Of a DNA stretch of 64,000 nt, positions 29,353 through 62,730 are shown piece by piece (the stretch's first letter is position 1; each line of letters begins with the position of its first letter). Below the pieces are notes generated by a model. The model saw only the letters and a program-made list of their open reading frames with translations. It had not been told where the DNA came from and did not search any database. The translations under genes were made by a program, and so were the position numbers. Source of the stretch: Actinoplanes lobatus (lineage in GTDB: Bacteria > Actinomycetota > Actinomycetes > Mycobacteriales > Micromonosporaceae); NCBI RefSeq assembly GCF_014205215.1, contig NZ_JACHNC010000001.1:9048501-9112500 (forward strand). Reading direction: 5' to 3'.

Positions 29353-29373
29353 TCTCATCCCGCAGCGGTGAGG
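29353..29373. promoter_or_regulatory. Stress palindrome box 1 (ThrE; perhaps also MFS)
   Basis: TCATCC-CGCAG-CGGTGA core. In the ThrE direction TAACTT follows at 29395-29400, the best -10 match of the set, 22 nt after the box. The ThrE ATG is 36 nt from the box, predicted +3 with no ribosome site. An inverse repeat GGATGA-ATC-TCATCC overlaps at 29346-29360. Confidence 0.7.
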
Positions 29374-29408
29374 CGACCGCGGCGGCCCCGCACCTAACTT
29401 CGGGCGAC

Positions 29409-30671
29409 ATGAGTGACTCGTCGATCTCCGACCGGGAGCTGCAACAGTTCCTGCTGTTCCTGGGCAGCGCGCTCACCGCGGCCGGCGAGGCGGTCAACCA
29501 GATCGAGGAGCATCTGCTGCGGGTGGCCCGGGCGTACGGCGCGGCGCACGCCCGGTTCAGCGTGCTGCCGACGTACGTCGTCATGTCCCTGGAGCCGGGC
29601 CGCCCGGCGACGCTGGAGCCGACCCGCGCGCTGCGTGGCGGGCTCCGCCTGGATCAGACCGCGGCCCTCTACGAGGTGCTGCGCGAGGCCGAGCAGGGCC
29701 TGACCTCGCCGGTCGAGGGCAGTCGCCGGATCCAGGAGATCGTGACGATGCGGCCCCGGTTCCGGCCGGCGTTGCAGATTCTCGGGTACGCCGTGCTGAC
29801 CGCCGGGATCTGCCTGATCCTCCAGCCGACGTGGGTGGACCTGCTGCTGTCCGTCCTCTTCGGCGTGCTGGTGGGCGGCTTCAAGCTGATCGGCGCCCGC
29901 TGGGCCAGCCTACAGATGATCATGCCGGTGGCGGCCGCGTTCGTGGTGGCGGCGCTGACTTTCATGATCGCCGGAGGCACCTGGCTGGACGCCGATCTGC
30001 GCGCGATGGTGGCCCCGCTGGCCACCTTCCTGCCCGGCGCCATGCTGACGATGGCGGTCGTCGAGGTGTCGGCGGCCGAGATGGTGACCGGGGCGAGCCG
30101 TCTGGTGGCCGGCCTCCTCCAGTTGCTGCTGCTCGCGTTCGGGATCATCGGCGCCGCCCAGCTGGTCGGGCTGCCCCGCGCCGAGCACCTGGTCAGCGCG
30201 CCGCAGAACTCGATCGGCGCGTGGGCGCCGTGGCTGGGCGCGCTGGTCGTCGGGATCGGCAACTACCTGGTGCTGTCCGGCCCACCCCGGACGCTCGGCT
30301 GGCTCTGCCTGGTCCTCTACTCCGGATGGATCGCCCAGTACCTCGGCGGGCAGGCGTTCGGCGGCTACCTGAGCGGCTTCCTCGGGGCGGTGGTGCTGAC
30401 CGTCGTGGCGTACCTGGTGGAACGGGTCCCGTCCGGGCCGCCCGCCCTGGTCTCGTTCCTGCCCGGCTTCTGGCTGCTGGTGCCGGGCGCACTGAGCCTG
30501 ATCGGGATCACCGAGTACCTGAGCCAGGACGCGGTACGCGGCGCCGAGGACCTGATCGGCGCGCTCGGCTCGATGCTGGCCGTCGCCCTCGGGGTGCTCT
30601 GCGGCCATCCGATCTATCGCGGTCTCGCCCGGGCGCTGGGCGCCTGGAACCTCCGCGAGGAACGCATGTGA
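29409..30671 (+). CDS. ThrE-type threonine/serine exporter
   Basis: 420 aa. The N-terminal cytosolic part (ALTAAGEAVNQIEEHLLRVA, with HARFSVLPTYVVMSLEP) is the ThrE_1 domain, followed by roughly ten membrane helices with the ThrE_2 half starting near SAPQNSIGAWAPWLG. The family exports threonine, serine and small peptides, known from Corynebacterium glutamicum ThrE. Translation seems leaderless: no Shine-Dalgarno, and the ATG lies about 2 nt after the predicted transcription start. A permease operon follows after 83 bp. Confidence 0.88.
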   Translation: MSDSSISDRELQQFLLFLGSALTAAGEAVNQIEEHLLRVARAYGAAHARFSVLPTYVVMSLEPGRPATLEPTRALRGGLRLDQTAALYEVLREAEQGLTSPVEGSRRIQEIVTMRPRFRPALQILGYAVLTAGICLILQPTWVDLLLSVLFGVLVGGFKLIGARWASLQMIMPVAAAFVVAALTFMIAGGTWLDADLRAMVAPLATFLPGAMLTMAVVEVSAAEMVTGASRLVAGLLQLLLLAFGIIGAAQLVGLPRAEHLVSAPQNSIGAWAPWLGALVVGIGNYLVLSGPPRTLGWLCLVLYSGWIAQYLGGQAFGGYLSGFLGAVVLTVVAYLVERVPSGPPALVSFLPGFWLLVPGALSLIGITEYLSQDAVRGAEDLIGALGSMLAVALGVLCGHPIYRGLARALGAWNLREERM

Positions 30672-30676
30672 CCGCG

Positions 30677-30697
30677 AACCGTTCCCCAGGGGTGAGG
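30677..30697 (+). promoter_or_regulatory. Stress palindrome box 2 (permease), half conserved
   Basis: Only the right arm GGGTGAGG is well kept, but GATGAT (xANNNT) follows at the expected distance (30719-30724). It would drive the permease gene at 30755. Confidence 0.45.
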
Positions 30698-30754
30698 CGG
30701 CGACCATCCATTCGGGCCGATGATCCGCGGAAAACCCCTCGATCGGAGGCAGCG

Positions 30755-61793: not shown

Positions 61794-61806
61794 GGGTCCG
61801 GAAACG

Positions 61807-62301
61807 TTACTGCTGTTCGCCACCGTGCAGGGCGTCCTGCAGCTCGGCCTCGGCCTCCTTCGACAGCGACGACTTGAGCACCGTGCCACCGAACTTGCTG
61901 AGCGCCTCCACCGCCTTGTCCGGGGTGACCGCCTCGACCACCAGGAACAGCGCCGACGTGCCCGGCTGGAGCTCCTCGCGGATGCGCTCCTGGAACTCCT
62001 TGTTGATGGCGCCCTTGGTCAGCTTGCCGGTGAGGGCGCCGAGGCCGGCGCCGACCGCCATGCCGAGCACCGGGATGAAGAACAGCATCCCGAAGAGCAG
62101 ACCCCAGAACATGCCCCACGTGGTGCCGCCCGCCACGGCGTGGTGGTTCGTGGTGACGTGGAACTTGCCCTCCTTGTCGCGGATGATCGTCGCGATCGCG
62201 TCCGGCTGGATGATCAGATCCTTGGCCAGCCGATTCGCCTCCAGCGACGCCGCCGTCGCCGTGGTCTCGTCGGAATAACCGATGGCTACCAGAATCGCCA
62301 T
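61807..62301 (-). CDS. DUF1269 membrane protein, copy 2
   Basis: 164 aa from ATG 62301. AILVAIGYSDETTATAASLE, hydrophobic hairpin LLFGMLFFIPVLGMAVGAGL, LKSSLSKEAEAELQDALHG: very close to copy 1 at 38757, with most changes in the KAINKEFQ/ERIREEL stretch. Recent duplication within the island or two copies kept for dose. Box 13 lies about 100 bp upstream in this direction. Confidence 0.88.
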   Translation of the reverse strand: MAILVAIGYSDETTATAASLEANRLAKDLIIQPDAIATIIRDKEGKFHVTTNHHAVAGGTTWGMFWGLLFGMLFFIPVLGMAVGAGLGALTGKLTKGAINKEFQERIREELQPGTSALFLVVEAVTPDKAVEALSKFGGTVLKSSLSKEAEAELQDALHGGEQQ

Positions 62302-62399
62302 GGCTCTCTCCTTCCGTACCCGTGTGGTGTCACTGTCGTGCCGCCGCAAACGGGGCACTGCGGCGTCCCGATCAGTCAGCCACGGACACGGTCGGCATT

Positions 62400-62420
62400 C
62401 CTCATTCCGAGCGGATGAAG
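62400..62420. promoter_or_regulatory. Stress palindrome box 13 (81-aa protein; DUF1269 copy 2)
   Basis: Exact TCATCC-GCTCG-GAATGA core on the minus strand. An overlapping inverse repeat CGGATGA-AG-TCATCCG (62412-62427) makes three arms in a row, as at box 1. AAAGGT follows at the right distance in the plus direction (62441-62446); the minus-strand -10 is off by one base. Confidence 0.6.
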
Positions 62421-62484
62421 TCATCCGGGGTCACGTCGTGAAAGGTGGCTGCTACAGACAGTCACCGGTGGAGGGGGCGCAGTC

Positions 62485-62730
62485 ATGCAGGAGCGGTACG
62501 AGATCCGGGTCCGGGGGTTCCTCGGTCCCCTGCTACGCATGGCGCTGGGCGATCTGCGCTGGCGCACCCTCCCGCGGCAGAGCACGATCCGCGGCAAGCT
62601 CTCGGACGCCGACCTGGAGAAGCTGCTCACCCGTCTGGACCGGTCCGGCGTGGAGGTCGTCTGTCTCCGCCGCCTGACCGGGGTTTCATCCGCCACGGAT
62701 GGCGTGGCGGTCACCGGTCCCGCCACATGA
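62485..62730 (+). CDS. Small YxVRVxG-type protein 2
   Basis: 81 aa. Starts QERYEIRVRGFLGPLLRMAL and ends in LEKLLTRLDRSGVEVVCLRR LTG; same spacing and key positions as the 76-aa protein at 35307-35537. A cytosolic small alpha/beta protein. GGAGGGGGC precedes the ATG. It is followed by DUF7144 copy 2, with box 14 inside its last codons. Confidence 0.72.
   Translation: MQERYEIRVRGFLGPLLRMALGDLRWRTLPRQSTIRGKLSDADLEKLLTRLDRSGVEVVCLRRLTGVSSATDGVAVTGPAT
62684..62704 (+). promoter_or_regulatory. Stress palindrome box 14 (DUF7144 copy 2)
   Basis: CATCCG-CCA-CGGATG, perfect 6-bp arms, inside the last codons of the 81-aa gene. CATGAT (xANNNT) follows at 62726-62731; the DUF7144 ATG is 70 nt from the box with AGGGAG upstream. 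Confidence 0.65.

Follow-up and report, generated by a model that had tools for sequence, protein, structure and literature searches.

In the genome of Actinoplanes lobatus, a palindrome close to TCATCC-N5-GRRTGA recurs along a cluster of stress-type genes; with a probability of roughly 0.86, it is the operator of a MalT-like activator whose gene (53115-55763) belongs to this cluster. The protein would bind in the -35 region and activate its stress-type neighbours. The window that we analysed is a stretch of 64,000 nucleotides (positions 9,048,501-9,112,500 of contig 1 of the 10.4-Mb genome), and its coordinates are used below. The shared palindrome had been read by eye from these letters (the original prediction), and our study confirms it. 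The system is the Actinoplanes MalT (MRLGR) regulon in a further species: since the same consensus and its dependence on MalT were published in 2020 for Actinoplanes sp. SE50/110 (PMC7567727, a source available in part), the motif is already known and not new. That a reading by eye led to an already published regulon validates that reading and gives the likely binder a name. Our study adds a two-sided arrangement of -10 elements, a likely feedback box for malT, a reading of the targets as stress and acid-resistance genes, and clusters of boxes with a regulator outside the Micromonosporaceae.

Boxes were sought by consensus matching, not with a weight matrix, and genes were told from gaps by a crude home-made gene caller, a box being intergenic when it overlaps a gene by at most 9 bp. 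Eight exact matches to TCAYYC-N5-GRRTGA lie between positions 35,595 and 62,418 of the window, the same number that had been claimed for sites with all 12 fixed bases intact, against a mean of 0.05 and a maximum of 1 in 100 dinucleotide shuffles. With up to one mismatch there are 13 boxes, all within 29,335-62,702 and none in the first 29 kb of the window, and TCATCC-N5-GRRTGA with up to two mismatches gives 37 strand matches, compared with 13.5 ± 4.3 expected. Beyond the right end of the window the cluster continues, with boxes near 67.9, 72.4 and 73.0 kb, and the genome holds 26 exact boxes: 8 in the window, 4 in the next 10 kb and 14 distal. The boxes are mainly intergenic rather than genic, both in this genome (22 of 26, though 66-90% of the stretches are called coding) and in the clusters of 16 relatives (94 of 111 exact boxes); the genic exact box within the cluster, at 46187, covers the last bases of the preceding gene. 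Control DNA of 560 kb from the same genome contains no exact box and 10 one-mismatch boxes, 5 genic and 5 intergenic. Nine of the 14 distal exact boxes have an xANNNT hexamer at offset 22/23 toward a called gene within 400 nt, including one that also overlaps a called gene (genome position 6275163); of the five without this layout, three (245817, 4667310 and 8846037) overlap called genes.

This hexamer, taken as the -10 element, had been described as having its A 22-23 nt after the 21-bp box. We measured the spacing in the stretches around the regulator ortholog of 16 other family genomes, using intergenic boxes with at most one mismatch, oriented by called genes within 300 nt and counted once per direction when they lie between divergent genes. 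The A falls at 22 nt in 112 and at 23 nt in 53 of the 275 oriented boxes, compared with about 4 at the average other offset and 15 at the highest (offset 57), which bears out the proposed enrichment; where a box has a single downstream gene (n = 71), the counts are 40 and 13. Each of the 13 window boxes has the hexamer at 22/23 on one or both sides, though two (29335 and 62402) are weak. Each hexamer originally listed was found at this distance from a box (18 positions), with CAGGCT (box 35595 and the two-mismatch box 42021) and GACGCT twice each as listed; GATGAT occurs once, not twice. In SE50/110 the distance from the 3' end of the motif to mapped starts is 34.4 ± 1.0 nt (PMC7567727), which our spacing fits. 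This would put the A at about -10/-11 and the centre of the box at about -43, so that the predicted geometry, with a centre near -44, holds.

The same layout can occur on both sides of a box. Of 111 boxes between divergent genes (the 16 clusters plus our own), the hexamer is found on both sides of 27, on one side of 69 and on neither side of 15, while eleven other offsets give no both-sided box in 1221 looks; in the window, the both-sided boxes are 36561, 42672 and 48170. About 34 would be expected if the two sides were independent, which argues for a shared layout and not for joint selection. Because the box is symmetric, one copy with a -10 on each side may serve two divergent promoters.

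In SE50/110, according to the available parts of PMC7567727, TCATCC-N5-GGATGA accompanies 17 transcription starts in a region of 51 genes; the genes there are MalT-activated and more highly expressed on maltose than on glucose. Deletion of malT (ACSP50_3915) lowered the transcripts of 42 of the 51 genes by quantitative reverse-transcription PCR, and its overexpression raised those of 39 (PMC7567727). The same source describes the region in Micromonosporaceae, reports copies of the motif in A. missouriensis, Pseudosporangium, Couchioplanes and Krasilnikovia, and equates the half-site GGATGA with the MalT box core GGA(T/G)GA; those parts of it contain no binding assay for MalT on the motif. MalT of SE50/110 does not control maltose genes (PMC7567727), and passages of further papers agree. 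Of particular interest is the signal that a MalT-like STAND protein senses when it controls stress-type genes and, in SE50/110, no maltose genes. Our cluster resembles that region in its consensus, its two MalT-like genes, its largely identical and clustered gene families and, as far as -10 positions show, its box-to-start distance. It differs in belonging to another species, in lacking ornithine carbamoyltransferase (OTC) and carbamate kinase in the window gene list around the arginine deiminase (43,961-45,181), and in that its targets are read here as stress and acid-resistance genes, not as amino-acid metabolism. Among the open-licence papers listed on the SE50/110 region, on an Actinoplanes or Micromonospora dormancy regulon, on stress palindromes of MalT-like or LAL regulators, and on the two half-sites together with MalT, none closer was seen.

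The cluster encodes two MalT-like regulators. The product of 53115-55763 scores above the Pfam cut-offs for GerE, TPR_MalT and AAA_22, and resembles the solved E. coli MalT chain 8bob_C in its N-terminal part (E = 3e-34 for the best stretch); that of 49723-52422 passes the cut-offs for GerE and TPR_MalT, with ATPase models below theirs. Both fall under the 537-bit cut-off of the NCBIfam MalT equivalog (243 and 216 bits, respectively), neither has a receiver domain among its Pfam hits, and a PADLOC scan of both gave only weak hits to the helix-turn-helix. Compared with the genes at the same places in a related genome (G130), they are 66% and 57% identical. The gene order there is DUF1269, GH63, GH13, MalT-like, DUF7144, MalT-like, BrkB-like, amidotransferase, amino-acid antiporter and arginine deiminase, followed by OTC, carbamate kinase and a phosphoesterase (the antiporter and a cut OTC piece score below curated cut-offs). 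Since this order agrees with the functions published for ACSP50_3915, 3917 and 3919-3924, we infer that G130 is SE50/110, and from synteny and the 66% identity that 53115-55763 is the ortholog of malT, lying inside the cluster next to its MalT-like counterpart 49723-52422. Among named relatives, the closest to 53115-55763 is in Actinoplanes flavus (96% identical). In 15 relatives the helix-turn-helix of 53115-55763 is 75-95% identical, compared with 43-70% for the body. A third MalT-like gene (8629721-8632309 of contig 1) is 35% identical to 53115-55763, with no box of up to one mismatch in the surrounding 20 kb.

Each box spans 17 bp and consists of two MalT-type half-sites, GGRTGA, in inverted orientation with a 5-bp gap. 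It would be the -35-region target of the MalT-like activator, which would thereby turn on the stress-type genes nearby; if the STAND protein works like E. coli MalT, an inducer and ATP would drive its multimerisation on the box and the recruitment of RNA polymerase. The original prediction had proposed a NarL/LuxR-type activator. An operator of the activator type, set at a constant distance from the -10, and a LuxR-type helix-turn-helix both agree with the analysis; a NarL-type two-component response regulator is an unlikely binder. Such a protein has a helix-turn-helix resembling that of MalT, and the -10 distance would suit it, but the half-site equals the MalT core, dependence on MalT has been published (PMC7567727) and box numbers track the MalT-like gene across genomes. 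We dropped this candidate as very improbable, although no survey of the genome's response regulators was made: with a published MalT-dependent motif and the ortholog encoded in the window, the binder is likely a MalT-like STAND/LuxR protein.

Box numbers were followed through 150 family genomes, an ortholog being defined by E <=1e-180 (our own genome included) and the lack of a full-length relative by E >1e-40. The 17 genomes with the ortholog have 7-36 exact boxes and the 61 without a full-length relative 0-9 (p = 2e-10); within the genus, 12 genomes with the ortholog have 7-36 and 5 without it 3-8 (p = 0.0013). A reversed-pattern control mostly gives 0-3 matches per family genome.

It is important to note that several results weigh against this assignment. 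The 72 remaining family genomes, with more distant MalT-like proteins, are intermediate (median of 7 boxes), and one genome (G029) has the ortholog, yet its 9 boxes equal its 9 control matches. Boxes of E. coli MalT are not arranged as a single inverted pair, and box 62402 lacks a -10 toward its DUF1269 gene. Within the genus the two regulators occur together, and the helix-turn-helix of the second is likewise more conserved than its body (61-89% versus 39-58% in 13 relatives), so that the profile cannot separate the two. The second regulator (49723-52422) could thus be the main binder, or both could share the boxes: it has the same domain plan, sits in the same cluster, is present together with the first in genus members, and the two recognition regions are alike, though not identical. 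We consider this unlikely, given that in SE50/110 deletion of ACSP50_3917 affects the region slightly (unpublished data of the authors) and that of ACSP50_3915 strongly, and that homologs of ACSP50_3917 were reported in only three of four other species (both from the available parts of PMC7567727). In addition, seven genomes of one genus (G042, G060, G077, G089, G100, G108 and G115) have 9-23 exact boxes and only distant MalT-like proteins (34-40%), which suggests that another regulator lineage may use the same box.

The plan of the window regulators is that of E. coli MalT (STAND ATPase, MalT-like TPR, C-terminal LuxR helix-turn-helix), and so is the half-site GGA(T/G)GA; the window differs in its single inverted pair with a fixed 5-bp gap, in its stress-type instead of maltose genes, and in regulators that score below the MalT equivalog cut-off. 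No fixed third half-site lies near the boxes, and extra half-sites number 68 in 39,223 positions; the reversed word gives 13 and four permuted words give 76 in total.

Positive feedback on the malT operon is likely. In SE50/110, malT forms one operon with ACSP50_3912-3914, which is raised by malT overexpression (PMC7567727). In the window the malT operon includes GH13-like and GH63-like genes, and box 60045 (one mismatch, -10 GAGCCT), 36 nt ahead of GH63-GH13-malT, would provide the feedback. GH63 is present in 10 of 16 relative clusters, with a box and -10 upstream of it or its operon in 9 of the 10. A further point on the opposing side is that malT itself has an upstream box with a -10 in 3 of 16 relatives (strict operon walk, gaps <60 nt), and the feedback therefore rests on the published operon and on GH63.

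The cluster was originally described as stress-type, and the families named for it, DUF308 (HdeD-like), DUF1269, DUF7144, Rv1733c, arginine deiminase and ion channel, are indeed found above their cut-offs (Table 1), as are an M48 peptidase and a diacylglycerol-kinase (DAGK) domain; the small proteins 32301-32720, 38043-38591 and 42725-43219 have no match in the family libraries tried. Of ten box-downstream genes beyond the window, PPK2, DUF1269, an M20 peptidase, DcuA/B, a peptidoglycan-binding protein and DUF6325 could be named and four had no family match. We read the targets as genes for acid, energy and envelope stress. The authors of PMC7567727, in the parts available, lean to amino-acid metabolism for the region's genes; both readings rest on gene-family names. 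Four glutamate decarboxylase-type genes (PF00282) occur in the genome, the nearest 27 kb to the right of the window, none tied to a box. The BrkB-like open reading frame (ORF) on the plus strand (48222-49385) overlaps the opposite HdeD-like gene (49098-49697) by about 290 bp, either a real overlap or a lost stop.

An Rv1733c-family gene among stress-type content could also point to a dormancy regulon of the DosR/OsdR type with a drifted DosR box. The regulons of OsdR (Streptomyces coelicolor) and DevR/DosR (mycobacteria) likewise group stress-type genes around their regulator, with one shared palindrome (PMC5069765, available in part); their palindrome is AGGGCCGATCGGCCCT, whose arm AGGGCC is unlike TCATCC, and their binder is a two-component response regulator (PMC5069765). 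The OsdR consensus with up to one mismatch has 27 sites in our genome, compared with 56 for the reversed control, and none in the window. We therefore rejected this explanation, to which we give next to no credence, and the palindrome is, as first stated, not DosR-like. Two OsdR-like sites, one exact, lie 3.4 kb apart on contig 1 (8473383 and 8476731), perhaps a separate OsdR-type locus.

Table 1. Boxes, regulators and target genes of the MalT-like cluster in window coordinates; cut-offs are those of the family models named.
Feature	Position	Strand	Details
Box, 1 mismatch	29335..29351	.	20 bp from next box; -10 only on side away from ThrE
Box, 1 mismatch	29355..29371	+	-10 TAACTT toward ThrE
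Exact box	35595..35611	-	-10 CAGGCT; minus side: small ORF, ion channel, HdeD-like genes
Exact box	36561..36577	.	-10 GACGCT (plus, DAGK-domain gene) and GATCGT (minus, M48 peptidase)
Exact box	38673..38689	.	-10 GAGTAT minus side (38043-38591); none at 22/23 toward DUF1269
Weaker box, 2 mismatches	42021..42037	-	-10 CAGGCT toward major facilitator superfamily transporter
Exact box	42672..42688	.	-10 GACGCT (plus, 42725-43219) and GATGAT (minus, Rv1733c-like)
Exact box	45252..45268	-	-10 GAGGCT toward arginine deiminase
Exact box	46187..46203	-	On phosphodiesterase gene 3' end; -10 CAGGAT toward glutamine amidotransferase
Box, 1 mismatch	48170..48186	.	-10 GACCAT (plus, BrkB-like) and GACACT (minus, phosphodiesterase)
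Exact box	49702..49718	-	-10 CACGCT toward HdeD-like (DUF308)
Weaker box, 2 mismatches	52558..52574	+	-10 CACTCT toward DUF7144
Box, 1 mismatch	60045..60061	-	On SulP 3' end; -10 GAGCCT toward GH63-GH13-malT; likely feedback site
Exact box	62402..62418	.	Precedes DUF1269 (minus), lacking a -10 at 22/23 toward it; AAAGGT plus side
Box, 1 mismatch	62686..62702	+	-10 CATGAT toward DUF7144
Second MalT-like STAND/LuxR regulator	49723..52422	-	Putative ortholog of ACSP50_3917 (Pfam, synteny); start codon uncertain
MalT-like STAND/LuxR activator (LAL)	53115..55763	-	Likely binder; putative ortholog of malT ACSP50_3915 (Pfam, synteny, identity)
ThrE-type exporter	29409..30671	+	PF06738 above cut-off
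GadC-type glutamate/GABA antiporter	30764..32203	+	NF053662, 698 bits (cut-off 640)
HdeD-like, DUF308	34103..34639	-	PF03729 above cut-off; HdeD equivalog far below cut-off
Ion channel	34636..35310	-	PF07885 above cut-off
DUF1269	38757..39254	+	PF06897 above cut-off
Rv1733c family protein	42043..42615	-	NF050032, 128 bits (cut-off 80)
Arginine deiminase	43961..45181	-	NF002381, 445 bits (cut-off 414); PF02274
HdeD-like, DUF308	49098..49697	-	PF03729 above cut-off (scanned as 49098-49763)
DUF7144	52648..53109	+	PF23636 above cut-off
GH13-like	55874..57340	-	Alpha-amylase model just under cut-off
GH63-like glycosidase	57337..60009	-	PF22422 and PF03200 above cut-off
SulP transporter with STAS domain	60040..61758	-	TIGR00815 above cut-off
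DUF1269	61807..62301	-	PF06897 above cut-off (scanned as 61807-62424)
DUF7144	62774..63211	+	PF23636 above cut-off

A further point of interest is whether this switch also operates in unrelated families of actinomycetes. We tentatively propose, at slightly less than even odds, that a MalT-type STAND switch has passed from the control of sugar use to that of a kit for stress and acid resistance travelling through actinomycetes. Beyond the Micromonosporaceae, the palindrome, the large LuxR regulator and an overlapping gene guild (GadC, arginine deiminase, HdeD-like, DUF1269, DUF7144, DUF6325, SulP, DAGK and PPK2) would recur together, and one palindrome would commonly fire both ways. Exact TCATCC-N5-GGATGA occurs in 27 of 196 class-level genomes, our own included, and the reversed pattern in one, a control that we judge too lenient because it contains the rare words CTA/TAG. 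Two findings speak against this wider proposal. Among the 26 other motif genomes (28 stretches), 22 have no MalT-like gene nearby and four have one (G274, G191, G155 and G237), which makes chance the probable origin of most single sites; in this sample, MalT-like relatives are in any case common. Boxes were examined at 14 of 28 named loci, of which seven lie outside the Micromonosporaceae, and five of these seven have no exact box (one has a one-mismatch box without a -10, four have none).

The two other loci have exact boxes. In Microbacterium aoyamense (Microbacteriaceae), a MalT-like gene (10052-12577) is accompanied by four exact boxes in 22.5 kb (4315, 7654, 9619 and 9929), all intergenic and each with a hexamer at 22/23 on one side, against an intergenic background of 10.6% (either side); their neighbours are SulP, DUF6325, phospholipase-D-like and sulfatase genes. 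In a Frankiaceae metagenome-assembled genome, all three boxes beside a MalT-like gene (3652, 3703 and 6815) have the spaced hexamer (background 10.2%), with DAGK, DUF7144, SulP and a BrkB-like gene (below cut-off) as neighbours. In addition, G237 carries an amidotransferase that is 62% identical to that of the window and is preceded by a box with -10 GACGCT, together with GadC-, DUF1269- and SulP-like genes and its MalT-like gene. Finally, G155 has two boxes, at 5644 (one mismatch) and 5685, one of which, with -10 CACGCT, faces a cytochrome bd oxidase subunit I gene, which hints at oxygen or energy limitation.

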